Part shown: in pieces, positions 1 through 10,994 of the stretch
How the letters are laid out: every line of letters begins with the position of its first letter
Position numbering within the stretch: the first letter of the stretch is position 1
Made by a program: the position numbers and the translations under genes
Assembly: GCA_016188625.1 (NCBI GenBank)
Contig: JACPHL010000124.1
Coordinates: 1-14,694 of the forward strand
Direction: 5' to 3'
DNA from: Candidatus Rokuibacteriota bacterium
GTDB taxonomy: Bacteria > Methylomirabilota > Methylomirabilia > Rokubacteriales > JACPHL01
Length of the DNA: 14,694 nt
Notes under the pieces: generated by a model
Database searches by the model: none
Seen by the model: the letters and a program-made list of their open reading frames with translations, nothing else
What the model was told of the DNA's origin: nothing

Positions 1-44
1 CGACCAACCTGCTCAAGCTCCACCGGGTCGGCGAGCACCGCTAG
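1..44 (+). CDS. Possible 3' end of a plus-strand gene (last 13 codons and stop)
   Basis: Reading from base 3, the plus strand gives TNLLKLHRVGEHR followed by TAG at 42-44. The fragment is too short to assign. A TNLL-K-L pattern near a C-terminus vaguely recalls the recognition helix of Fis-type helix-turn-helix domains that end NtrC-family regulators, but that is only a guess. Support for a real gene end is positional: the dispersed repeat begins at the very next base after the stop, and the minus-strand operon ends far away at 403, so a convergent arrangement is plausible. An open stretch of 14 codons at this GC content could easily be chance. Confidence 0.3.
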   Translation, partial: TNLLKLHRVGEHR

Positions 45-117
45 ACCCCTCGGAGGGGGGCTGACGCCCCCCTTCCGAACCTCCCCCCAAGGGTGCGCGG
101 GCCAAGCCCGCGCTCGG
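45..117. repeat. Two-hairpin intergenic repeat, copy A
   Basis: This is the first of two copies; the other is at 8876-8948 in the same orientation. Bases 47-89 match 8878-8920 at 42 of 43 positions. Hairpin 1 pairs 51-54 (CGGA) and 55-61 (GGGGGGC) with 66-72 and 74-77, with T73 bulged and loop TGAC. Hairpin 2 pairs 95-102 (GCGCGGGC) with 106-113 around loop CAA, a perfect 8-bp stem. Its middle pair 99:109 is G:C here and C:G in copy B, a compensatory change that suggests the structure itself is selected. It sits between the possible plus-strand gene end and the end of the LPS operon, so it could act as a bidirectional terminator or RNA-stabilising element, though it has no T tract. It resembles REP-type elements in general form only. 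Confidence 0.8.
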
Positions 118-402
118 AGCGGACCGTCAGGAGCTGGGAGACAACCCCGCTTCTCCTACAGCCGCTCGGGGAGGTGCCGGCCCTGAGCGGAACGTTAAGC
201 GGAGCGGCGCGGGTCCCCGTCGTGAGCGAGCCGGGTGGGGAAGCCGGAGGACAGGCTCAGAACGAAGAAGGAGGGGCCCCGCCCGGCGAGCCACTGACGG
301 GTGCGCCGCGGAGCGTGTGGAGCGAGGGGTCGGCGCCTCCCCGGGCTGGGGGCCGAGAGCGCGCGGGCCGCATCGGCGGGACTCGGAATAGAACCCCGGG
401 GC
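118..402. other. Non-coding spacer downstream of the operon, with one strong hairpin
   Basis: No convincing gene is seen here on either strand. Open frames crossing it are proline/arginine/glycine-rich, as expected from GC-rich DNA, and those running on past 403 are out of frame with the glycosyltransferase gene. I looked for tRNA T-arm, SRP RNA, RNase P and tmRNA signatures and found none. The clearest structure is the inverted repeat at 162-190, listed separately. There is also a GGGGCCCC palindrome at 273-280 and several loose repeats of GCGGAGCG-like words. The most likely role is the 3' untranslated and termination region of the minus-strand operon. Confidence 0.6.
162..190. terminator. 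Stable hairpin in the operon's 3' spacer, possible terminator or RNA 3' end
   Basis: CCGCTCGGGG (162-171) pairs with CCCTGAGCGG (181-190), giving a 10-bp stem with one G-T wobble and a 9-base loop. It lies about 210 bases past the stop codon of the last operon gene and about 70 bases past repeat copy A. No run of T follows on either strand, so it is not a textbook intrinsic terminator. It could still be a factor-dependent stop, an RNA-stabilising hairpin, or chance in GC-rich DNA. Confidence 0.35.
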
Positions 403-1512
403 TCAGCCGAGCCGGCGGTAGAGGGCGAGGACTTCCTCCATGTGGCGGGACCAGGGGTAGGCCTCGACCGCGCGACGGGCACGCTCGCCCATCGCCTCGC
501 GGCGCTCCGGGTTGAGGAGGGTCGCCAGACAGACCGCGAGGCGCTGGAAGTCCGTCGGGTCCTCCACGACCCACCCGCTCCGCCCGGAGTCGAGCAGCTC
601 GGCCGAGCCGTTGGCGCCGGTGGTGACCACCGGCAGCCCTACCGCCATCGCCTCGAGGCAGGTGCTCGCGGCAGGGTCGTAAAGGGAGGGCAGGACAAAG
701 GCGTCCGCCGCGGCGTAGGCCGGCAGCGGATCGTCGAGTAGTCCGAGGAAGCTCACCCGGTCCTCCACGCCCAACGCCGCCGCCAGGCGCCGGTAGGGAC
801 CGACCCTCCCCGCCCCCGCCACGAGGAGGCGGAAGGCCCCCCGGAGCCCGGTGAGCGCCACTAGGAGCGGCCCGAGGCCCTTCCGCCGGAACCCGCTCCC
901 CATGAAGAGGAAGGCGGTCTCGTCGCCGAGGCCGAACCGCTGCCGGGCGGCTGGCCGGAGCGCCCGTCGGCGCTCCGGGTGGAACGCCTCGAGGTCCACC
1001 CCGGTCCGGATCAGCTCGATCGGAGCCGACGGCCGGTAGTGACGGCGGATCTCGCCCGCGACCTGCCGGGAGTTGGCGACGAGGACCCGGGCGCCGCCCT
1101 CGAAGACCCGCCGATCGAGGGCAAGGAGGACCCGGTGGAGAGGCCGCGCGGTGTCGAGAAGGGTCTCGTGGCGGGGCAGGTGCCGGCGGCGGCGGACGAG
1201 CCACTCCCGATGGACCCCCTCCCCTGCCCGGTAGACGTCCTGGGCGAGGATCCGGTCGAAGCTGTGCACCAGCCCCCCGGCGGCTCGTGCGACACGGGGG
1301 GCCAGCAGGGCAAAGAGCAGGAGGCGGATCGGCTTCGGGACCGGCGGGAGCGGGACCCGGCGGACCTCGACGCCCGGCGGGAGCCCCTCCCAGCGGTGGG
1401 CGATCACCGAAACCTCGATCCCGGCCTTCCGGAGCTCGGCGACGACGCGGGCGGCCACCCGCTCGGCCCCGCCGTGGGGCCGGAACTCCCGCCGGACCAC
1501 GGCCACCCTCAC
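403..1512 (-). CDS. Glycosyltransferase family 4, WaaG-like LPS core glycosyltransferase
   Basis: A 369-residue GT-B enzyme predicted to transfer a sugar from a nucleotide-sugar donor to the LPS core at the inner face of the cytoplasmic membrane. The N-terminal domain opens with MRVAVVRREFRPHGGAERV (glycine-rich acceptor-side loop at 13-15) and contains SFDRILAQDVYRAGEGVHREWL-type sequence around 84-105, close in pattern to E. coli WaaG. The C-terminal domain has GSGFRRKG (205-212), whose Arg/Lys pair normally contacts donor phosphates. The EX7E region reads DPAASTCLE, with Asp279 replacing the first Glu and Glu287 kept. The GTG start at 1510-1512 overlaps the previous gene's TGA in GTGA; a longer upstream frame only reads through that gene. 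It is the last gene of the operon. The WaaG assignment is by pattern, and the exact sugar and acceptor cannot be read from sequence. Confidence 0.85.
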   Translation of the reverse strand: MRVAVVRREFRPHGGAERVAARVVAELRKAGIEVSVIAHRWEGLPPGVEVRRVPLPPVPKPIRLLLFALLAPRVARAAGGLVHSFDRILAQDVYRAGEGVHREWLVRRRRHLPRHETLLDTARPLHRVLLALDRRVFEGGARVLVANSRQVAGEIRRHYRPSAPIELIRTGVDLEAFHPERRRALRPAARQRFGLGDETAFLFMGSGFRRKGLGPLLVALTGLRGAFRLLVAGAGRVGPYRRLAAALGVEDRVSFLGLLDDPLPAYAAADAFVLPSLYDPAASTCLEAMAVGLPVVTTGANGSAELLDSGRSGWVVEDPTDFQRLAVCLATLLNPERREAMGERARRAVEAYPWSRHMEEVLALYRRLG

Positions 1513-2615
1513 CCTCGGCCCCCCAGCAGTCCCGCGTAGAGCTCGACGAGGCGACGGGCCACCTCGCCGCCGGCGTAGCGCGCCTCGACCGCCCGGCGGG
1601 CGGCCCGGCCGAGGCCGCGCGCCAGGGCGGGATCGTCGAGGAGCCGGGCGATAGCCGCCGCCAGCGCCTCGGGGGCCTCGGGGGGGACCAGGAGCGCCGA
1701 CTCGCCGTCCACGAGGACCTCGGGGGCAACCCCCACGCGGGTCGCCACGATGGGGCATCCCGCCGCCATGTACTCGAAGTGCGCCCGCCCCATCCCCTCG
1801 GAGGTCCGTGACGGATAGACGGCGACGTCCAGGGCGCACAGGGCGGGGGGCAGAGGCTCCACATGGCCGGCGAGGATCACCCGCTCCCCGAGGCCCAGGC
1901 GCGCGATCTCCCTTCGGATCGCCGCCTCCTCCGGCCCCTGCCCCATCAGGAGGAAGCGGGCGGCTGGGACCCGGTGGGCGAGCCCGGCGACCGCCTCGAG
2001 GAAGGTGACGTGGCCCTTCATCGCGCGCAGCCCCGCCACCACCCCGACCAGCGGGGCCTTGTCAGGGATCCCGTAGATGCGCCGGACCGCCGTGCCGTCG
2101 AGGCCGGGGCGGAACGCCGCGGCATCCACCCCGCCGTGGAGGACGGCGAGTCGATCGGGCGGGAGCAGTCCCAGGGCGCGGTAGTGGGCGCCGATCGCCT
2201 CCGCCACCGCGACCACGAGCGCGGTCCTGGCGTAGAGCCAGCGGTTCAGGGGGTGGGGGCGGATCGGCCCGACGATGTGCCGCGTGCGGACGATCGGGAT
2301 CGGGGAGGGCGCCAGGGCGGCGAGCCAGTGCTCCTTGCCGCGGTGGACGTGGACCAGGTCGAATCGGGGGAGGAGGGTCCGGAGGGCGAAGAGGTCGCGA
2401 AGGTCCGAGGCGGGGGCGAGGCCGCCGGTGAGGCGCAGGGGGAGGAGGTCCCCCGCCCCCATCGCGGCCAGCTGCGCGAGGATCCTGGTCCCGTCCCTGA
2501 CCGCGAGGACGACCTCGTGGCCGAGCCGCCGCTGCTCGGCGACCATCCGCGCGGCCCAGTAGGCGTCGGAGCTCCAGCCCCGACAGCTCATGAGGTGGAG
2601 GATCCGGAGCTTCAC
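1509..2615 (-). CDS. Glycosyltransferase family 4 (third of three tandem paralogues)
   Basis: A 368-residue retaining GT-B glycosyltransferase of the GT4 type, probably acting in core or O-chain assembly. Residues 1-10 (MKLRILHLMS) form the first Rossmann strand, followed by the acceptor-side loop. HVHRGKEHWLAAL (89-101) and NRWLYARTALVVAVAEAI (124-141) are shared in pattern with the two upstream glycosyltransferases. GGVDAAAFRPGLDG (161-174) leads into the C-terminal domain. Arg197 and Lys200 in LRAMKGH fit the donor-phosphate pair, and Glu273/Glu281 form a complete EX7E motif. The GTG start (2613-2615) is fused to the preceding stop as GTGA, and the stop overlaps the next gene in the same way. 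Donor and acceptor are unknown. Confidence 0.88.
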   Translation of the reverse strand: MKLRILHLMSCRGWSSDAYWAARMVAEQRRLGHEVVLAVRDGTRILAQLAAMGAGDLLPLRLTGGLAPASDLRDLFALRTLLPRFDLVHVHRGKEHWLAALAPSPIPIVRTRHIVGPIRPHPLNRWLYARTALVVAVAEAIGAHYRALGLLPPDRLAVLHGGVDAAAFRPGLDGTAVRRIYGIPDKAPLVGVVAGLRAMKGHVTFLEAVAGLAHRVPAARFLLMGQGPEEAAIRREIARLGLGERVILAGHVEPLPPALCALDVAVYPSRTSEGMGRAHFEYMAAGCPIVATRVGVAPEVLVDGESALLVPPEAPEALAAAIARLLDDPALARGLGRAARRAVEARYAGGEVARRLVELYAGLLGGRG

Positions 2616-3727
2616 CGCCCCTCCCCGAGGAGGTCGCGGTAGATCGCCTCGACGCGGGCCGCCTGCCGCGCGGGCGCGAAGGCGGCCTCGACCCGCTGCC
2701 GCCCCGCGGCGCCCATCCGCCGGGCCCGCTCCGGGTCCGTGAGGAGCGTCTCGATGCGCGCCGCGACCGCTTCGGGGTCTCGCCCCTCCACCAGCCACCC
2801 GGTCTCGCCGTCCACCACCGTCTCGGGGAGGGCGCCAGCGCGGGCCGCCAGCACGGGGCGGCCCGCGGCCATCGCCTCCAGGGCCGCGCGGCAGGACTCC
2901 TCGGAGCCGGCGCCGAGCAGGACGAAGCAGTCCATGGCCGCCAGGGCCGCCGGGAGGTCCGCCTCCCGGTAGCCCGCGAAGCGGGCGGCGTCCTCGAGCC
3001 CGAGCCGTCGGATCTCCGCCTCGAGGCCCGGTCGCCCCTCTCCCTTCCCGACGATGAGGAGCCGGGCGACCGGCAGGCGCCCGCGGAGGCGGGCGAAGGC
3101 CTCGATCAACAGATCGTGGCCGCGCCCCGGGACCAGCCGCCCGACGGTCCCCACGACCGGCGCCTCGCCGAGCCCGAGCTCCGCGCGGATCGCCCGCCCG
3201 TCGAGCCCGGGAGGGAACCGCGCGAGGTCCACGGCCCCGCCGATCCGGTGGCGGCGGTCCGCGGGGAACACCGCCGCGAGGCGTCGCTCGATCGGCCCGG
3301 CCACGGCGATCGCGGCATCGGTCCGGCGGTAGAGCCAACGGTGCAGCGGATCGGCCTTGACCGCAGCCGCCCGGTGGAAGGTCCTCAGAAGCCGCGCGGG
3401 CGCGCCGCCCCTGGCGAGCCCGGCGAGCCAGTGGTCGTGGGAGAGGTGAGTGTGGACGATCTCGATCCCCTCGGACCGGATGAGCCGGCGCAGGACGACG
3501 AGGTCCCTCGCCAGCCGGAAAGGGTGGGCGGTCCGGTCGAGCGAGAGCCTTTCCACCAGCGGGAGCCCCTCGCCCCGGGCCGTTGCCTCGAGACGGTCCC
3601 CGCGGATGCACCCCAGGAGCACCCGGTGCCCGCGCTCCCGAAGCCCTCGGACGAGGGTGATGACGGGGTCGGCGCTCCCGGTCCACCAGCGGTTGGCGGC
3701 GAGGTGAAGGACCCGGAGCGGCCTCAT
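2612..3727 (-). CDS. Glycosyltransferase family 4 (second of three tandem paralogues)
   Basis: A 371-residue GT4-type GT-B enzyme with an ATG start overlapping the upstream stop as ATGA. The N-terminal domain begins MRPLRVLHLAANRWW. It shares HTHLSHDHWLAGLA (92-105), HRWLYRRTDAAIAVAGPI (129-146) and AVDLARFPPGLDG (165-177) with its neighbours, so the three are probably tandem duplicates. Glu276 and Glu284 make a full EX7E motif. One oddity is that the usual KGH of the donor site reads RGH (Arg202-Gly-His), a conservative Lys-to-Arg change. The N-terminal loop, TGSADP, also differs from the GG-type loop in the first paralogue. Both may reflect a different donor or acceptor. It lies in the LPS core block, but the linkage made cannot be deduced. 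Confidence 0.87.
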   Translation of the reverse strand: MRPLRVLHLAANRWWTGSADPVITLVRGLRERGHRVLLGCIRGDRLEATARGEGLPLVERLSLDRTAHPFRLARDLVVLRRLIRSEGIEIVHTHLSHDHWLAGLARGGAPARLLRTFHRAAAVKADPLHRWLYRRTDAAIAVAGPIERRLAAVFPADRRHRIGGAVDLARFPPGLDGRAIRAELGLGEAPVVGTVGRLVPGRGHDLLIEAFARLRGRLPVARLLIVGKGEGRPGLEAEIRRLGLEDAARFAGYREADLPAALAAMDCFVLLGAGSEESCRAALEAMAAGRPVLAARAGALPETVVDGETGWLVEGRDPEAVAARIETLLTDPERARRMGAAGRQRVEAAFAPARQAARVEAIYRDLLGEGR

Positions 3728-4806
3728 GGCCGGAGGAGGGCCCGGTAGAGGGCCTCCACCCGGTCGAGGACCGCCTCGGAGGAGTGACGGGAGAGCACGA
3801 GCGCCCGGCCCCGCTCGGCCCGCTCCCGGCTCGCGTCGGGCTCCTCGAGGACGCGCCGGAGCGCCCCCGCCAGCCGGTCGGGCTCCCCGGGCGGGACCAG
3901 GAGGCCGGTGACGCCGTCCTCGACGAGCTCGGCGATCCCCCCAGTGGCGGTCGCCACGACGGGGTGCGCCATGGCCATCGCCTGCAGGAGGGCCTGCGGG
4001 ATCCCCTCGGAGCGGAGCGAGGCGAGGACGACCACGTCCATGGCCGCCAGACACTCCGGGACGTCCCGCCGGAAGCCGAGGAAGTGGACCCGCGCCTCGA
4101 GCCCGCGCCGCTCCACCTCCGTCTCCAGCGTCGGCCGCCCGCTCCCGTCGCCGACCAGGAGGAGCCGGGCGTCGGGGTAGTGGGGGAGGAGCGCCCGGAA
4201 GGCCTCCAGGAGGTCGGCGTGGCCCTTCGAGGAGCGGAAGAAGGCGACGCACCCGAGGGTCGGCCAGCCGAGCCCCAGCTCCTTCCGCACCGTCTCCCCG
4301 CTCACCGCGGGCGAGAAGCGGGCGGGATCGACGCCGGCCGGCAGGGAGACGAGGCGCTCGGCCGGGACCCCGGCGGCGCGCAGGGCCGCCTCGACGCCGC
4401 GCCCGCTCGCGATGACCCGGTCGGCGAGGAGGGTGTAGACCGGGTTCCAGCGCCGCCGGACCGGGATCGAGACGTGGCGGCTCCTCACCACCGGGCGGCC
4501 GAGGAGCCGGCCCGCCAGCCCACCGAGCCAGGCGTCGATGGAGCTGTGGGTGTGGACCAGCTCCACGCCCTCGCGGACGAGGAGGGCGGCGAGCCCGGCG
4601 AGCGCCACGGGGTCCGCGGGCCCCCGCATCCGGAGCGGCCGCGCCTCGATCCCTTCCTGGCGGGCCTGGGCGAGGATCCGGGCCCCGGGCTGGCCGGCGA
4701 GCAGGACGCGCCACCCGCGCGCGACGAGCCCCCGGCACTCGGCGAGGGTCCGGATCTCCTGGCCGCCCCAGCCGGGCGAGGCCTCGGTGTGGAGCACGGT
4801 GCTCAC
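3724..4806 (-). CDS. Glycosyltransferase family 4 (first of three tandem paralogues)
   Basis: A 360-residue GT4-type GT-B enzyme. The N-terminal domain carries MSTVLHTEASPGWGGQE, with the GWGGQE acceptor-side loop at 12-17, and HTHSSIDAWLGGLA (85-98). The C-terminal domain carries AGVDPARF (157-164), FFRSSKGH (189-196, Arg191/Lys194) and SEGIPQALLQAM (266-277). In the last motif the second Glu of EX7E is Gln275; this variant occurs in some GT4 subgroups and need not mean inactivity. The GTG start at 4804-4806 overlaps the heptosyltransferase stop as GTGA. A frame extending upstream to 6183 only runs through the neighbouring gene. Coming directly after a heptosyltransferase, it most likely acts on the inner or outer core; its sugar specificity is unknown. 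Confidence 0.87.
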   Translation of the reverse strand: MSTVLHTEASPGWGGQEIRTLAECRGLVARGWRVLLAGQPGARILAQARQEGIEARPLRMRGPADPVALAGLAALLVREGVELVHTHSSIDAWLGGLAGRLLGRPVVRSRHVSIPVRRRWNPVYTLLADRVIASGRGVEAALRAAGVPAERLVSLPAGVDPARFSPAVSGETVRKELGLGWPTLGCVAFFRSSKGHADLLEAFRALLPHYPDARLLLVGDGSGRPTLETEVERRGLEARVHFLGFRRDVPECLAAMDVVVLASLRSEGIPQALLQAMAMAHPVVATATGGIAELVEDGVTGLLVPPGEPDRLAGALRRVLEEPDASRERAERGRALVLSRHSSEAVLDRVEALYRALLRP

Positions 4807-5825
4807 CGCCGCCTCCCCAGGCGCTCGCGGACCGCGCCGTAGACCTCCTCCACGGTGATCGCCCGCAGGCAGCGGTGATCGATCGGGCAGCGGCGGGCGA
4901 AGCAGGGCGCGCAGGGCGGCGGCTTCCAGAGCACGGCGTGGTCGGTCCCGAGCGGCGCGGTGAGTCGAGGGTCGGTGGGGCCGAAGAGCGCGACCACGGG
5001 GACGCCGCTCGCCGCGGCCACCTGGGTCGGGCCGGTGTCGCCGCCCACGAGGACGCTGAGCCTCGAGCAGAGCGCGGGGAGGAGCGCCGGACGATCCTCC
5101 CCCACCAGCGAGAGCGGGGGCTTCGCCATCGCCCGGCGGATCGCCTCGTAGAGCGGCCGCTCCCGGGGACTCCCCAGGAAGAGGACCGCGAGGCCGTCGC
5201 CCAGCAGGCGCTCGGCCAGCCGGGCGTAGGCGTCGAGCGGCCAGAGCTTGGAGGGGCCGAAGGCGGCGCCGAGCTGGATCCCGACGAGCGGCTCTCCCGG
5301 CACCACGCCCCGCTCGGCCAGGAGCCGGTCGGCCTCGGCCAGGCGTTCGGGCCCGATCGGAAGGCGCGGGGCGCGCTCCTCGGCCGCGAGGCCGAGCGGC
5401 CCGAGGAGGCGGAGGTAGGCCTCCACCTGATGGACCGGCCCCCGGGGCCTCGGGACGGGATGGGTCAGGAGGAGTCCGCGCCCGTCGGCGGCGTACCCGA
5501 CCCGGACGCGGGCCCCCGTGAGCCAGGCCTCGAGGGCCGAGCTGAAGGAGTTGGGGAGGAGCAGCGCCACGTCCACCCCCTCCCGTCGGAGGGCCCGCAT
5601 CTGGCGGAGCCGCTCGGCCCACCCCGACGCCCACGGCAGGATGCGGTCGGCGAGCGGCTCGCCCTCCAGGAGCTGGCCGGCCCAGGGGCCGAGCAGCAGG
5701 AGGTCGGCCCCGGGGAACCCCCGCCGGAGGGCCCGGAGCATCGGGGTCGCCATGACGGTATCGCCGAGCCAGTTCGGGCACCGGACCAGGATCCGCCGGA
5801 GGGCGGCGGCGGGTGGTGCCGTCAT
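4803..5825 (-). CDS. waaF: ADP-heptose:LPS heptosyltransferase (GT9, WaaF type)
   Basis: A 340-residue GT9 enzyme that adds L-glycero-D-manno-heptose from ADP-heptose to the inner LPS core. Supporting features are ILVRCPNWLGDTVMATPML (12-30) with the family's conserved Asp22, GIQLGAAFGPSKLWP (182-196) in the donor-binding domain, and GGDTGPTQVAAASGVPVVALFGPT (261-284). The heptosyltransferase II (waaF) assignment rests on PNWLGDTVM and full length. The C-terminus has four cysteines, C305, C308, C313 and C319 (PPCAPCFARRCPIDHRC), a feature of many non-enteric homologues but absent from E. coli WaaF; it could bind metal or form disulphides. The ATG start overlaps the lpxK stop as ATGA, and the stop overlaps the next gene as GTGA. 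The choice between heptosyltransferases I and II is not certain. Confidence 0.9.
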   Translation of the reverse strand: MTAPPAAALRRILVRCPNWLGDTVMATPMLRALRRGFPGADLLLLGPWAGQLLEGEPLADRILPWASGWAERLRQMRALRREGVDVALLLPNSFSSALEAWLTGARVRVGYAADGRGLLLTHPVPRPRGPVHQVEAYLRLLGPLGLAAEERAPRLPIGPERLAEADRLLAERGVVPGEPLVGIQLGAAFGPSKLWPLDAYARLAERLLGDGLAVLFLGSPRERPLYEAIRRAMAKPPLSLVGEDRPALLPALCSRLSVLVGGDTGPTQVAAASGVPVVALFGPTDPRLTAPLGTDHAVLWKPPPCAPCFARRCPIDHRCLRAITVEEVYGAVRERLGRRR

Positions 5826-6922
5826 CGGGGGAGGCCCAGGCGGGCGCGGAGGGCATCGCGCCAGGCCCCTGCCCCCTCGCCGAGGGCGAGACGGACTCTG
5901 AGCGCCCAGACGGGGAGCCCCGAGCCCCGGGGCAGCCGCACCGCGTCCTTCTCGGTGGTGATGGGCCCCTCGGCGCCGAGGGCCCTGGCCTGCGCCGCGA
6001 GCGCCCGGAGGTCGTCGGGGGCGTAGGGGTGGTGATCCGGGAAGGCGAGGAGGTCGAGGACGGGGAGCCCGGCGGCCCGGAGGGTGGCCCGGAACGAGTC
6101 GGGCGCGGCGATCCCCGCGAAGGCGAGGAGGCGCCGTCCGTCGAGGGCGGCCAGCGGCAGCCGTCGTCCCGTCGCCACCTCAAGGATCCCCTCCGGCTCG
6201 AGGCGCGCCAGGGCGCACGGCGCGGTCGGGTTCCACCGTCTGAGCTCAGCCCGGACCCGCTCGATCGCCGGGTCCGGGGCCTCGGCGTGGGTGATCACGA
6301 GGAGGTCGGCCCGGCCCGCGGCCCGCGCCGGCTCCCTGAGGCTCCCCCGCGGGAAGAGTCCGCCGCGCCCCCACGGCGCCTGCGCGCTCACCAGGAGGAC
6401 CTCGACGTCCTTGGCGAGGGTGCGGTGCCGGAAGCCGTCGTCCAGGAGGAGGACCGCCGGGCGGAAGCGCTCGAGGGCCCAGGCGCCCGCGCGGTAGCGG
6501 TGCGCGCCCACGACGACCGGCACGCCCGGCAGGCGCGCGGCCAGGAGGGAGGGCTCGTCCCCGGCCTCCTCGGGGCCGAGGAGGAGCCGCTGGCCGTCCG
6601 AGACGGCCTGGATCTCGGCCGTGCGGGCGCGGCGGTAGCCGCGGGAGAGGACGACCACCGGTGCGCCCGCGGCCTGAAGCTCGCGGGCCAGGAGCTCGAC
6701 CATCGGGGTCTTGCCCGTGCCGCCGAGGGTGAGGTTCCCGACGCTGATCACCCGACAGGGCAGGCGCCGGGTGCGGAGGACGCCGAGCCGGTAGAGGCCC
6801 GCCCGAAGCCGGAGCAGGATCCCGTAGCCGAGCGCGGCCACCGAGAGGAGCCCGGCCCAGGCGGGCGCGGGCTCGCGCTGCCACGCCCGGTGGAGACGTT
6901 CGGACCAGAGCGCCGCGCGCAT
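5822..6922 (-). CDS. lpxK: Tetraacyldisaccharide 4'-kinase, lipid A biosynthesis
   Basis: LpxK phosphorylates the 4' position of the tetraacyl disaccharide 1-phosphate, forming lipid IVA at the inner face of the cytoplasmic membrane. With the ATG at 6920-6922 it is 366 residues. A hydrophobic N-terminal segment (about 21-40) fits the membrane-associated helix. VGNLTLGGTGKTPMVELLAR (61-80) contains the P-loop, SRGYRR follows, and LLLDDGFRHRTLAKD carries the paired Asp residues expected of the family. The start is uncertain: a GTG at 6938-6940 would add six residues, overlap waaA by 11 bp and has GGAG about 10 bases upstream, whereas the ATG has no clear ribosome-binding site. It follows waaA directly and precedes the heptosyltransferase, matching a late lipid A/core order. 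Confidence 0.95.
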   Translation of the reverse strand: MRAALWSERLHRAWQREPAPAWAGLLSVAALGYGILLRLRAGLYRLGVLRTRRLPCRVISVGNLTLGGTGKTPMVELLARELQAAGAPVVVLSRGYRRARTAEIQAVSDGQRLLLGPEEAGDEPSLLAARLPGVPVVVGAHRYRAGAWALERFRPAVLLLDDGFRHRTLAKDVEVLLVSAQAPWGRGGLFPRGSLREPARAAGRADLLVITHAEAPDPAIERVRAELRRWNPTAPCALARLEPEGILEVATGRRLPLAALDGRRLLAFAGIAAPDSFRATLRAAGLPVLDLLAFPDHHPYAPDDLRALAAQARALGAEGPITTEKDAVRLPRGSGLPVWALRVRLALGEGAGAWRDALRARLGLPR

Positions 6923-6929
6923 GGGGCCA

Positions 6930-8216
6930 TTATAGCCCACCGGATCGAGGCTCCCCCAGGACGCGCTTCAGGAGCTCGATCGTCCGCGCCGTCGCCCCTT
7001 GCCGGGCCCGAACCGCCTCGCGGGCCGCCGCCCCGAGGCGTCGCCGCTCCTCGGGATCGCGGAGCAGGCGATGGACCGCCTCGGCGAGTCCGTCTCGATC
7101 CCGCACCTGGATCGCGCCGCCCGCCTCGAGGAGCAGGGTGGCGGCCTCCCGGAAGTTCTCCACATGCGGTCCGAAGACGACTGCCTTTCCCAGGAGCGCG
7201 GGCTCGATCATGTTGTGCCCCCCGACCGGGACCAGGCTCCCGCCGACGAAGACCACGTCGGCCGCGGCGTAGAGCGAGGCCAGCTCCCCCACGGTGTCGA
7301 GGAGGATCACCGGGCGCTCGGCTCCCGACCGCTCGGCCGGGAGACGGCTCCGCCGCACCCCCTGGAGCCCGCGCCGGGCCAGGAGCTCCTCCACCTCCCC
7401 CACGCGCTCCGGATGCCGGGGGGCGAGGATGAGGGTGAGGGGGCCGCCCTCCGCCCGGACCCGCTCCAGCGTCTCGAGGAGCTGCTCCTCCTCGCCGCGG
7501 TGGGTGCTCCCGGCGATCCAGATCGGCTCGGTGTCGGCGAGGTGGAGGAGCCGGCGCCAGAGTCGGTCCGCCCCCTCGACGCCGGGGGCCTCCATCTTCA
7601 GGTTGCCGGTAACCACCACGCGCTCCGGCGGCGCGCCCAGACCGATGATCCGGCGGGCGTCCTCCTCGGACTGCATCCCGAATCCCGTGACCTCCCCGAG
7701 GGTCCGCCGGAAGAGGCGCCGGACGAGCCGGTACCGCCGGTAGGAGCGGTCCGAGATCCGGCCGTTCACCACGACCGACGGGATCCCCCGCCGGGCGAGG
7801 GTGCGGAGGAGGTTGGGCCAGAGCTCGGTCTCGAGGGCGATGAAGCCGCGCGGCGCGATCCGGCTCACCGCGGCCTGGACCGCGAAGGGGAAATCCAGGG
7901 GGAAGGCGATGAGGGCCGAGACCTCCGGCAGGCGATCGCGCACCACCCGGGCCCCGGTCCCGGTGACGGTGGAGATGACGACCTCGGTCTCCGGCCAGCG
8001 GGCCCGGAGGGCGCGGACGAGGGGGATGGCCGCCATCGCCTCCCCGACGGAGACGGCGTGGACCCAGAGCCGGGGAGGGCCGGGGCGGAGGGGGACGAAC
8101 CCGAGCCGCTGCCCGAGGAGTAGCGGCTCCCGACCTCGCCAGACCCGGCGGAGCAGGAAGCCGGGGAGGGCCGCCAGATAGGCGAGGCCGAGGCAGAGAC
8201 TATAGAGTAGGTACAC
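6930..8216 (-). CDS. waaA: 3-deoxy-D-manno-octulosonic acid (Kdo) transferase
   Basis: WaaA (KdtA) transfers Kdo from CMP-Kdo to lipid IVA, founding the inner core. The 428-residue protein has the usual N-terminal membrane anchor (MYLLYSLCLGLAYLAALPGF) and then HAVSVGEAMAA (53-63), where Glu59 corresponds to the catalytic glutamate of the SVGE motif. ALETELWPNLL, GSTHRGEEEQLL, LAPRHPER and GGSLVPVGGHNMIEP are all classical GT30 motifs, and the length is normal. The GTG start at 8214-8216 is the only one that keeps the anchor; it overlaps the upstream gene by 17 bp and has no obvious Shine-Dalgarno site, so translational coupling is likely. Whether it adds one, two or more Kdo residues cannot be read from sequence. 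Confidence 0.96.
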   Translation of the reverse strand: MYLLYSLCLGLAYLAALPGFLLRRVWRGREPLLLGQRLGFVPLRPGPPRLWVHAVSVGEAMAAIPLVRALRARWPETEVVISTVTGTGARVVRDRLPEVSALIAFPLDFPFAVQAAVSRIAPRGFIALETELWPNLLRTLARRGIPSVVVNGRISDRSYRRYRLVRRLFRRTLGEVTGFGMQSEEDARRIIGLGAPPERVVVTGNLKMEAPGVEGADRLWRRLLHLADTEPIWIAGSTHRGEEEQLLETLERVRAEGGPLTLILAPRHPERVGEVEELLARRGLQGVRRSRLPAERSGAERPVILLDTVGELASLYAAADVVFVGGSLVPVGGHNMIEPALLGKAVVFGPHVENFREAATLLLEAGGAIQVRDRDGLAEAVHRLLRDPEERRRLGAAAREAVRARQGATARTIELLKRVLGEPRSGGL

Positions 8217-8874
8217 GGGCGCCGAAGTAGGCGTCGGCCTCGCGGGTCAGCTCGCGCAGGCGGCTCTCGAGGGCCCCCCGCCGCGCCTCCAGGACCTCCC
8301 GATCGGCGTCCGCGGGGACGTAAAGGGGCTCCCCGAAGATCACCACCACGCGGGCGAAGGGGTGGGGGACCAGGAACTCGTCCCAGCTCGCCAGGTGCGT
8401 CCGCCGGGAGGCGGAGAGCGCCAGGGGGACGATCGGGGCCCCGGAGAGCTTGGCCAGGAGCGCGATCCCGGACTGGACGACGTAGCGGGGGCCGCGCGGG
8501 CCGTCGGGGACGATCGCCGCCTCCTCCCCCGCCTTGAGCCGGCGGGCCAGCTCCCGGATCGCGGCCGTACCGCCCCGGGTGGTGGAGCCGCGCACCACGC
8601 GGAAGCCGAACCCCCGGACGTAACGGCTCACCAGCTCGCCGTCCCGGTGCCGGCTCGCCAGGACCCAGGGGCGATGGCGTCCGCGGTAGAGGTACGGGAC
8701 CAGGAGGATTCGCCCGTGCCAGCAGGCGTAGATGAGCGGCGCCCGAGCGGCCCAGAACGGCTCGACGACGTCGCGGTTGACCTCCGTCAGGGTGAGGGTC
8801 CGCCCCAGGAGCGAGACCGCCCACCGGCCCAGCGGGGGGAGGAGGGCGAGGCGAAGCCGATCGGCCCAGCTCAT
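8200..8874 (-). CDS. DUF374 family lysophospholipid-type acyltransferase, likely lipid A secondary acyltransferase
   Basis: A 224-residue acyltransferase of the DUF374 (COG2121) group. Family features are CWHGR (51-55), where the HGR-type motif stands in for the HX4D of related acyltransferases, SRHRDGELVS (74-83), RGSTTRGG (95-102) and VPDGPRGPRYVVQSG (122-136). There is a hydrophobic N-terminus (about 8-25) but no cleavable signal. DUF374 members have been described as the late lipid A acyltransferases (LpxJ) of Helicobacter and Campylobacter. Its place just before waaA, with no LpxL/LpxM in the window, makes the same job likely here. The ATG at 8872-8874 has AGGG 5 bases upstream, and that AGGG is the edge of repeat copy B. 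The acyl chain and acceptor are not known. Confidence 0.88.
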   Translation of the reverse strand: MSWADRLRLALLPPLGRWAVSLLGRTLTLTEVNRDVVEPFWAARAPLIYACWHGRILLVPYLYRGRHRPWVLASRHRDGELVSRYVRGFGFRVVRGSTTRGGTAAIRELARRLKAGEEAAIVPDGPRGPRYVVQSGIALLAKLSGAPIVPLALSASRRTHLASWDEFLVPHPFARVVVIFGEPLYVPADADREVLEARRGALESRLRELTREADAYFGARVPTL

Positions 8875-8875
8875 G

Positions 8876-8948
8876 AACCCTCGGAGGGGGGCTGCCGCCC
8901 CCCTTCCGAACCTCCCCCCACCGGTTGCGCCGGCAAAGCCGGCGCTCG
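8876..8948. repeat. Two-hairpin intergenic repeat, copy B
   Basis: The second copy, in the same orientation as 45-117. Hairpin 1 pairs 8882-8885 and 8886-8892 with 8897-8903 and 8905-8908, again with one bulged T (8904) and loop TGCC instead of TGAC. Hairpin 2 pairs 8927-8934 (GCGCCGGC) with 8938-8945 around loop AAA; its pair 8931:8941 is C:G where copy A has G:C. It fills most of the only long gap inside the operon, between the lpxB stop and the acyltransferase start. Read on the coding strand, the stem of hairpin 1 ends just before the AGGG that serves as the acyltransferase ribosome-binding site, so the structure could affect its translation as well as mRNA stability. Confidence 0.8.
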
Positions 8949-8986
8949 AAACGCCTCCTCAAAGGGATGCTGTGGCGTGGGGTGTC

Positions 8987-10117
8987 TCATCCCGTCACCG
9001 AGGCGCCGACCTCGCGGAGGATGCTTCGGGCCGCACGTTCGGTCGCGCCGGGCTGGCCGAGGCGAGCCCGGACCTCCCGGAGGGCATCGAGCTGCGCGGC
9101 GCGGGCTCCGGGGTCGTCGAGGAGGGCGAGGGCCTCGCGCGCCAAGGCGGCGGAGGTGGCGGCGCCCTGAATCAGCTCGGGGACGACCGCGCGCCCCGCG
9201 AGGATGTTGGGGAGGCTGATGTAGTGGACACCCCGGACGACGAGCCGGCCGATGAGATAGCTCGGGGGCGACACCCGGTAGATCACGACCATCGGGGCGC
9301 CGAACCACGCCGCCTCGAGGGTGGCCGTGCCCGAGGCGACCAGGAGGAGGTCCGCCCCCGCCATCACCCGGTAGGTCTCCCCGGAGACCACGCGCACCGC
9401 CACCTCGCCCCGCCGAAGCGGGCCGGCCACGGCCTCGGCGGGGATCGTCGGGGCCAGGGCGAGCACGAACCGCGCCCCGGGCCGGGCGGCCTGGATGCGG
9501 CCGGCCGCCTGGAGCATCAGGGGGAGGTGCCGCGCGACCTCCTCCCGCCGGCTCCCCGGCAGGAGCCCGACCAGCGTCTCGCCGTCCCGGGCGTATGCCT
9601 GGCGTGCCGGCCCGCGGTCGAGGGCCGGGAGGACGTCGAGGAGGGGGTGGCCGATGAACTCCACGGGCACCCCGGCCTCCTGGTAGAGGCCGACCTCGAA
9701 GGGGAAGACCGCGAGGACGCGATGGACGTGCCGGGCGATGGTTCGCAGGCGGCCCCGCCGCCACGCCCACACCTGGGGGGCGATGAAGTAGACCACGGGG
9801 ATCCCGAGGGCGGAGGCCGTGCGGGCCAGGCGCAGGTTGAAGTCCGGGAAGTCGATGAGGACCAGGCCGCTCGGGCGCGTCTCGGCGAGGTGGCGTCCGA
9901 GGCGCCGGAGGCCCCGGAGCAGGGCCGGGAGGCGACGGGCGACCTCGCTGATCCCCACCACGGAGGCCTCCTCGATCCCGTGGAGGAGCCGGACCCCGGC
10001 CTCGCGCATCCGCTCACCGCCCATCCCGACGAGGCTCCACTCCGGGACGAGCCGGGCCAGGGCCCGCGCGAGGGTGGCGCCGTGGAGGTCGCCCGAGGCC
10101 TCGCCGGCGACCACCAT
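8987..10117 (-). CDS. lpxB: Lipid-A-disaccharide synthase
   Basis: LpxB condenses UDP-2,3-diacylglucosamine with 2,3-diacylglucosamine 1-phosphate (lipid X), a GT19 reaction at the inner membrane surface. The 376-residue protein has GEASGDLHGA (5-14), IDFPDFNL (88-95), APQVWAWRRGR (113-123), GHPLLD, LLPGSRREEV and YISLPNILAGRAVVPE, all in the expected order. I chose the ATG at 10115-10117 because family members begin within a few residues of VAGEASGD. An upstream GTG at 10186 would add a low-complexity glycine/proline stretch and overlap lpxI. GGAGG about 9 bases upstream supports the choice. It follows lpxI after 40 bp and precedes a 112-bp gap containing repeat copy B. Confidence 0.96.
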   Translation of the reverse strand: MVVAGEASGDLHGATLARALARLVPEWSLVGMGGERMREAGVRLLHGIEEASVVGISEVARRLPALLRGLRRLGRHLAETRPSGLVLIDFPDFNLRLARTASALGIPVVYFIAPQVWAWRRGRLRTIARHVHRVLAVFPFEVGLYQEAGVPVEFIGHPLLDVLPALDRGPARQAYARDGETLVGLLPGSRREEVARHLPLMLQAAGRIQAARPGARFVLALAPTIPAEAVAGPLRRGEVAVRVVSGETYRVMAGADLLLVASGTATLEAAWFGAPMVVIYRVSPPSYLIGRLVVRGVHYISLPNILAGRAVVPELIQGAATSAALAREALALLDDPGARAAQLDALREVRARLGQPGATERAARSILREVGASVTG

Positions 10118-10157
10118 CAGGCTCGGGCCTCCGCCTGCCCGCCCCCCTCCGAGTGGA

Positions 10158-10994
10158 TTAGACCCCGACGAGGGTGATCCCCTCACGCTCCGCCTCGGCG
10201 ACGAGGGTCTCCCGGTCCAGGAGCACGACCCGCCCGGCCTGGACGGCGAGGACCGCTCCCCGCCCCTCGGCCAGCGCCCTGAGGGTGGTCGGTCCGACGG
10301 TCGGCACGTCGAAGCGGTAGTCGTGGTCGGGATGGCTCAGCTTGACGACCACCGCCCCGGGGCCGCCGAGCCGCGTCCCACGCCGGATCGCCTCGTCGGT
10401 CCCCTCCAGGGCCTCCACCGCCAGCACGGTCCCGGCCCGGACCACCACGGTCTGGCCGACGCCGTGACGGACGAGGCCGTCCCCGACCGCGAGGCCGACC
10501 CGCACGTCCTGCCACTGGGCGTCGGTGGGCGCCGTGCGGGTGAGGGCCCCTTGGGGCGCGAGCCAGGGGGCCAGGAAGCGTCGCTGATCGAGCAGCTCGA
10601 TCCCCAGCCGGGCGAGCTCGCCGGTGGCCACCCGGAACAGGGCCGCGTCGCTCCAGTCCGGGGCGGCCGCCAGGAGCCGGCCCGCCTCGCCGTCCAGGGC
10701 CATCCCCTGAAAGAGCGCCTCCTTGCGGACCCGGCCGGCCAGGACCACGTGTCGGATCCCCTCGGCGCCGAGGGTCGCCAGGATCGGCGCGATCTCACCG
10801 AGGCGGGTGGGGATGACCCGATCGACCTCCGCCGCGAGTTCGGGGGCGTCGGGGAGGGCGAAGGCGATCACGCGCCACCCCTCGCGCCGGGCCTCCCGCG
10901 CCACGAGGGCGGGGAGGGTCCCGCTGCCGGAGAGGAGCCCCAAGGGCGCGCGCACCGGGGAGGGTCCCGCCGGGTCGGGGGAGGGCCCGACCAT
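10158..10994 (-). CDS. lpxI: UDP-2,3-diacylglucosamine pyrophosphatase, LpxI type (DUF1009)
   Basis: LpxI hydrolyses UDP-2,3-diacylglucosamine to lipid X and UMP, replacing the LpxH of enterobacteria. The 278-residue length is normal. The N-terminal domain shows LGLLSGSGTLPALVAREAR (18-36). The C-terminal catalytic domain shows VVVKLSHPDHDYRFDVPTVGPTTL (215-238, quoted by key parts: Asp223, Asp225, Arg227, Asp229 and the PTVGP turn), the region that holds the catalytic aspartate in characterised LpxI. The ATG start is 10 bp after the oxidoreductase stop, with GAGG overlapping that stop as ribosome-binding site; it gives about 16 residues of proline-rich lead-in. The position just before lpxB matches its step in the pathway. 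Confidence 0.95.
   Translation of the reverse strand: MVGPSPDPAGPSPVRAPLGLLSGSGTLPALVAREARREGWRVIAFALPDAPELAAEVDRVIPTRLGEIAPILATLGAEGIRHVVLAGRVRKEALFQGMALDGEAGRLLAAAPDWSDAALFRVATGELARLGIELLDQRRFLAPWLAPQGALTRTAPTDAQWQDVRVGLAVGDGLVRHGVGQTVVVRAGTVLAVEALEGTDEAIRRGTRLGGPGAVVVKLSHPDHDYRFDVPTVGPTTLRALAEGRGAVLAVQAGRVVLLDRETLVAEAEREGITLVGV

Follow-up and report, generated by a model that had tools for sequence, protein, structure and literature searches.

The window, the whole 14,694-nt stretch of DNA analyzed here, carries two copies of a two-hairpin repeat, both on the + strand (Table 1). Copy 1 lies at the left edge of the contig, where the bases TAG at 42-44 form the in-frame stop codon of a partial + strand gene. 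Copy 2 lies between lpxB and a gene encoding a DUF374 domain, in reverse orientation relative to the operon that these two genes form. The start of lpxB may be nearer 10117 than the coordinate given in the table.

Table 1. Features of the window associated with the two repeat copies
Feature	Position	Strand	Basis	Remarks
CTAG	41..44	+	sequence	4 nt ahead of copy 1 core
Copy 1, two-hairpin core	45..117	+	covariance model 97.3 bits; fold
Copy 1 hairpin 1	50..78	+	fold, covariation	50-61 pairs 66-78, one bulged T
Copy 1 hairpin 2	95..113	+	fold, covariation	95-102 pairs 106-113; 99:109 is G:C
DUF374-domain gene	8200..8874	-	PF04028	downstream neighbor of copy 2
CTCAT (ATGAG on -), direct repeat	8870..8874	+		holds DUF374 gene start codon
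Bridging ORF, 39 codons	8871..8990	-		ATG overlaps lpxB TGA; its TGA overlaps DUF374 ATG
Copy 2, putative inserted unit	8875..8985	+	covariance model 92.1 bits; relatives' junction	between CTCAT direct repeats
Copy 2 hairpin 1	8881..8909	+	fold	8881-8892 pairs 8897-8909
Copy 2 hairpin 2	8927..8945	+	fold	8927-8934 pairs 8938-8945; 8931:8941 is C:G
CTCAT (ATGAG on -), direct repeat	8986..8990	+		holds lpxB stop TGA
lpxB (lipid-A-disaccharide synthase)	8987..10186	-	TIGR00215 above cut-off	upstream neighbor of copy 2

The two copies in the window

An initial annotation, made from the letters of the window, had described this repeat at 45-117 and 8876-8948, and both copies were present and folded as described. 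Its identity of 42 of 43 bases in the first part applies to 47-89 compared with 8878-8920; at 45-87 compared with 8876-8918 the count was 41 of 43. The switched pair in the second stem (99:109 compared with 8931:8941) and the change of the loop from CAA to AAA were both recovered. Analysis of predicted folding energy revealed that each copy beat 200 of 200 dinucleotide shuffles on either strand, with z-scores of -3.7 (copy 1) and -4.4 (copy 2) on the + strand and -3.0 and -3.3, respectively, on the - strand. The description of the copies as strictly between genes holds for copy 2 with respect to annotated genes, but copy 2 can itself be read as a short ORF apparently coupled to both neighbors; this bridging ORF had no Pfam match.

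We also examined the sequence around copy 1. Contig bases 1-119, including the CTAG ahead of the core, recur without a difference in a second contig of the genome bin (C322; L230 5701-5571), which is consistent with an assembly-graph overlap, and copy 1 and the copy on C322 may be one physical copy, joined at an assembly branch. Because these contig-edge bases are common to both contigs, the gene neighborhood of copy 1 is not secure. On its right side, copy 1 gives way from about position 168 to a second dispersed repeat family (window 168-342, CTGAGCGGAACGTTAAGCGGAGCGGCGCGGGTCCCCGTCGTGAGCGAGCCGGGTGGGG...), which directly adjoins it, is also fused to several other copies of the element, and was matched about 50 times by BLAST across 1.05 Mb of the same genome.

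An order-restricted family with covarying hairpins

The genome bin comprises 2.60 Mb in 344 contigs and is 84% complete. A search with a 17-base piece of hairpin 1, allowing at most 2 mismatches, gave 95 matches compared with 6 for the reversed control. A covariance model built from 13 copies gave at least 150 scored matches in the genome (139 + 19 in the contigs examined), and 153 non-redundant copies were analyzed. The suggestion of a genome-wide family is thus borne out; instead of the window's two copies alone, the genome holds about 150, far above chance. The intergenic location held as well, with 146 of the 153 copies outside called genes and 7 placed inside genes by the caller. One full-length copy (L141 2001-2071), flanked by CTAG on either side, lies midway along a 1.9-kb open frame of the opposite strand, which reflects either an error of the gene caller or an insertion that kept the frame. 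Contig ends often fell within element copies, as is the case for dispersed repeats. One copy (L193, contig C70, bases about 1-30) runs into AGATCGGAAGAGC... at the contig end, which looks like leftover sequencing-adapter sequence in the assembly.

Copies were identified in 56 of 59 genomes of the same order, source genome included, at 1 to more than 85 per genome; several genomes of the order carried 0-1. In a search across the phylum, the element was present in 54 of the 60 genomes from this order compared with 1 of the 35 from the remaining orders of the class, and the family is specific to one bacterial order. Neither at the gathering score nor at E<0.5 was any Rfam family matched, and permissive scans gave chance-level matches alone. 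We found no paper on such a repeat in Rokubacteria or Methylomirabilota. A viral origin was rejected, the exact core pattern being absent from viral contigs.

Covariation was measured in 139 copies from the source genome. Thirteen of the 20 pairs had changed on both sides (shuffle mean 3.2; 0 of 500 shuffles as high), a count that, the copies being kin, does not represent independent events. The covariation score was 0.112 compared with 0.039, and collapsed in slid versions. The relatives repeated this result (8 pairs; score 0.114 compared with 0.034). Covarying pairs were identified in both helices and included 7 of the 8 pairs of stem 2, the stem in which the initial annotation had noticed a compensatory change. 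That G:C/C:G switch is common to many copies and may trace to few events; other pairs varied too, with C:G replaced by U:A beside the loop of helix 1 and by G:C close to the base of that helix, and with several changes in helix 2. Taken together, these data agree with the earlier proposal that the fold is maintained and not the sequence alone. Since the hairpins are kept by compensatory changes, a folded single strand, either DNA during mobilization or RNA after insertion, would be what is recognized or selected.

The element proved longer than its initial boundary, extending further right to a full length of about 133-140 nt counted from the core. The core measures about 71 nt. About 45 copies had the full-length form of about 137 nt, whose right end is defined (TACTCGGACGGGCTC|CTAG), and shorter forms occurred alongside. 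The right end of copy 2 departs from this form and is short (GTGTCTCAT); other right-end variants comprised fusion to the second dispersed repeat and tandem cores about 92 nt apart. Tandem or nested cores with a spacing of about 70-92 nt were observed in the source genome and in the relative G035 (L381, L385, L389, L173, L190, L197). The two ends have CTAG-GWGCC-like bases in common, with GTGCC on the left and, read inward, GAGCC on the right. The left terminal bases are degenerate and the internal hairpins are conserved.

Placement at stop codons and tight gene junctions

Gene positions were taken from a simple codon-usage gene caller, which recovers the operon of the window. The main feature of the family, which is absent from the initial annotation, is its fixed position relative to stop codons and stop/start overlaps. 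In 81 of the 99 copies that face a stop codon, the core began 0-6 nt past it; in 45 of the 99 the distance was exactly 4 nt. When the left end faced a start codon on the other strand, the typical distance was 5-20 nt. The same placement at stop codons was observed in relatives of other genera. About one third of convergent gaps were occupied; the share was about 10% for co-directional gaps and about 3% for divergent ones. Stops beside elements were rich in TAG and TAA (CTAG in 28 and CTAA in 19 of 99 copies); genome-wide, TGA dominates. The stop tetramers seen at the left flank were CTAG, CTAA, CTGA, GTAG, GTAA and TTAA. A merged gene call was noticed along the way: an open frame around proS (L194 5299-8481) also matches GcpE and a LAGLIDADG domain, which suggests two genes joined by the caller and a possible intein.

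Fifty-four copies were scored as lying away from stop codons, and 12 of them had YTAR at -8..-5 from the left end, although at least 4 of the 12 are stops that were missed at contig edges. At the right end YTAR occurred in 10 of 36 copies; the intergenic background is 0.24% per position. Exact identity between left and right tetramers was found in 6 full-length copies compared with 4.0 by permutation (P = 0.14), so that an exact duplication of the target is not significant for the CTAG class as a whole. Because identity did not exceed permutation, the CTAG at the right end could be part of the element and not of a target duplication. At the A/B junctions the letters in common were 4.04 compared with 3.56 in shuffles.

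At three junctions, the neighboring genes overlap or abut in genomes that have no insert between them. The first is the lpxB/DUF374 junction of copy 2. In the source genome, the two genes are separated by a 112-nt gap with ATGAG at both edges. We compared this junction in 29 relatives, which are distant (52-66% protein identity; comparison genomes overall 52-77%). The genes overlapped or lay at most about 40 nt apart with no element in 28 of the 29; the outlier estimate of 413 (L285) was due to a partial match, the actual sequence there being GTGA followed directly by coding sequence. The junction was thus filled in 1 of 30 genomes, and on comparison of these sequences copy 2 is read as an insertion into it. 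ATGA (DTGA) on both sides of the insert was observed for copy 2, L232, L179, L392, L394, L396, L397 and others, within the ATGA class alone and not in copies at CTAG/YTAR. Among 13 ATGA/GTGA junctions, 10 inserts kept the coupling frame (binomial P = 0.0016), and 8 of those were open. An open bridging frame is nevertheless weak evidence and partly a GC effect, because one other frame was open as often (9/13).

The second is the phosphoglucomutase/tlyA junction, where the genes adjoin directly in a 75%-identical relative (G003) and the element lies between them in the source genome, with the native stop codon kept. The third is trpA/accD, where about two thirds of genomes have a tight junction with no insert and the rest have it filled. 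The element or a variant was present there in about 15 of 47 readable genomes, its left end always toward accD, and occupancy was polymorphic within five genera (g2, g7, g9, g11 and g16). Repeated insertion at this site is the simpler reading of these sequences, because loss must restore tight junctions exactly. In genus g12 and in G010, four copies upstream of accD (L430, L431, L432, L440) carry an extra GC-rich stem between GGGGGGAGG and hairpin 1.

Origin of the element and comparison with known systems

The explanation in which we place high confidence is a non-autonomous mobile element that inserts at gene junctions and survives where both genes stay readable. The copies would represent a MITE/MIRU-like element with a core of about 71 nt, a full length of about 137 nt and shorter forms. 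It would land in two classes of site, either directly past a stop codon, mostly TAG or TAA and often within CTAG or a related YTAR, or within the 4-letter ATGA stop/start overlap, with ATGA(G) then present on both sides. In the latter class the insert could often be read as a short ORF, as for copy 2, in which the upstream stop and the downstream start are coupled. Insertions of either class would usually leave both neighboring genes intact. A target duplication is well supported at ATGA junctions and poorly so in the CTAG class; we infer transposition itself, the short duplication and the role of the bridging ORF in coupling from these arrangements.

We searched for a mover among the Y1 (PF01797) and DDE_Tnp_1 (PF01609) families. 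PF01797, the RAYT family, was absent from the source genome (84% complete) and from most copy-rich relatives, namely G005, G025, G026, G035, G039 and G048; three Y1 genes were identified in G045, which carries zero copies of the element. PF01609 was absent from the source genome and from the copy-rich genomes G005, G026, G033 and G035, and a DDE_Tnp_1 transposase was rejected as the mover on these grounds. No longer autonomous element with these right ends was found among 21 right-end matches. Beside one element copy, on contig C287, an inverted extra right end was observed.

Other explanations were weighed against this mobile origin. One, which concerns function after insertion and is compatible with a mobile origin, holds that reverse-orientation copies are kept because they set the translation of the downstream gene; we regard it as possible, though not probable. 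Here the element end reads 5'-GGGGGGAGG-UU-(hairpin 1)-AG-N(3-9)-AUG, so that hairpin 1 would bring a strong Shine-Dalgarno sequence beside the start codon. Thirty-eight copies had the left end facing a start at a distance of at most about 16 nt; 33 of the 38 keep the GGAGG-hairpin arrangement, 20 lack any further Shine-Dalgarno in the interval from hairpin to start, and the predicted fold leaves GGAGG unpaired. The accD copies fit this pattern, hairpin 1 lying beside the start codon in the same orientation in these approximately 15 genomes. However, an ordinary local Shine-Dalgarno was found in about half of the start-facing copies, and the motif was conserved equally in copies far from starts, where it is unable to serve, so that position-specific selection is not shown. 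Short copies in G035 and G033 (L383, L386, L388, L391) have the right end GAGAGGAGGGTAGNCC just before the next start codon, and the right end of such short copies therefore appears to carry its own Shine-Dalgarno. A combined and rather speculative reading is a mobile translation-initiation module, that is, a hairpin element that repeatedly lands at tight junctions and takes over translation of the next gene through a coupled bridging ORF or a Shine-Dalgarno folded by hairpin 1. Upstream of accD it would have done so in many lineages, each time independently but always in the same orientation, with a mover outside Y1/DDE_Tnp_1.

The initial annotation had listed termination and mRNA protection among its options, and a terminator or protecting stem-loop past stop codons, spread by virtue of that function, would account for the strong stable hairpins, the left hairpin 4 nt past the stop and the filling of about one third of convergent gaps. 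We consider it unlikely as the general explanation. Neither hairpin 1 nor hairpin 2 is followed by a U-tract on either strand and many copies occupy tight gaps within operons, a short way ahead of the following start codon, which makes a plain terminator unlikely for those copies; several genomes of the same order also do without the element (0-1 copies).

Ancient inheritance, with empty sites arising by loss, appears improbable. It would fit the order-wide spread and the shared trpA/accD position and orientation in many genera, but the polymorphism within five genera would need repeated precise losses restoring TAG-N2-3-ATG, and lpxB/DUF374 is filled in the source genome alone. A REP/REPIN family moved by a RAYT (Y1 tyrosine) transposase, the mobile option of the initial annotation, is very improbable: the palindromic, high-copy, intergenic copies with TAG at one end recall it, but with neither RAYT nor DDE_Tnp_1 in the source genome or several copy-rich relatives such an origin is not supported, the tetramer at the hairpin foot is not fixed, there is no conserved GTAG tag at that foot, and the ATGA-type insertions do not fit.

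The preferred reading, a non-autonomous mobile element, describes a dispersed element that fits compact operon spacing outside mycobacteria, keeping both genes while its RNA or DNA fold is maintained. If the accD placements are independent insertions, they offer a natural series on how an inserted hairpin alters translational coupling in an operon. The absence of Y1 and DDE_Tnp_1 genes from several copy-rich genomes makes the mobilizing enzyme a searchable question.

Comparison with known systems revealed likeness to three. As in MITEs, the copies are short, dispersed and of non-coding origin, have ends with GWGCC-like similarity and, in some copies, YTAR on both sides, and occupy junctions that are tight and empty in relatives; they differ in that no parent IS was found in the two families searched, the left terminal bases are degenerate beside conserved internal hairpins, and a CTAG-class target duplication is not statistically established. 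GTAG REPs, whose termini often give a TAG stop codon to flanking ORFs (PMC3733652), share with our element the abundant intergenic palindromes near 3' ends and the TAG stops lent to neighbors. In contrast to GTAG REPs and REPINs, the Rokubacteriales element has no fixed GTAG (or CGTC) foot tag and no RAYT association, measures about 137 nt, and has a separate right end and ATGA insertions. MIRUs are short, seemingly mobile units at start codons with an internal ORF coupled to its neighbor at -4 nt (PMC12548453), and the ATGA class resembles them in arrangement, with ATGA on both sides and an open bridging ORF in 8 of 13 cases. Unlike MIRUs, the Rokubacteriales element has two conserved covarying hairpins and a second class at CTAG/YTAR stops, including sites between convergent genes, and it occurs, we infer, in a different phylum. 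Frames were open in both orientations, so a peptide, unlike in MIRUs, is not the conserved part. By analogy, the element would be MIRU-like at ATGA junctions and GTAG-REP-like in lending TAG stops, and we file it under neither.
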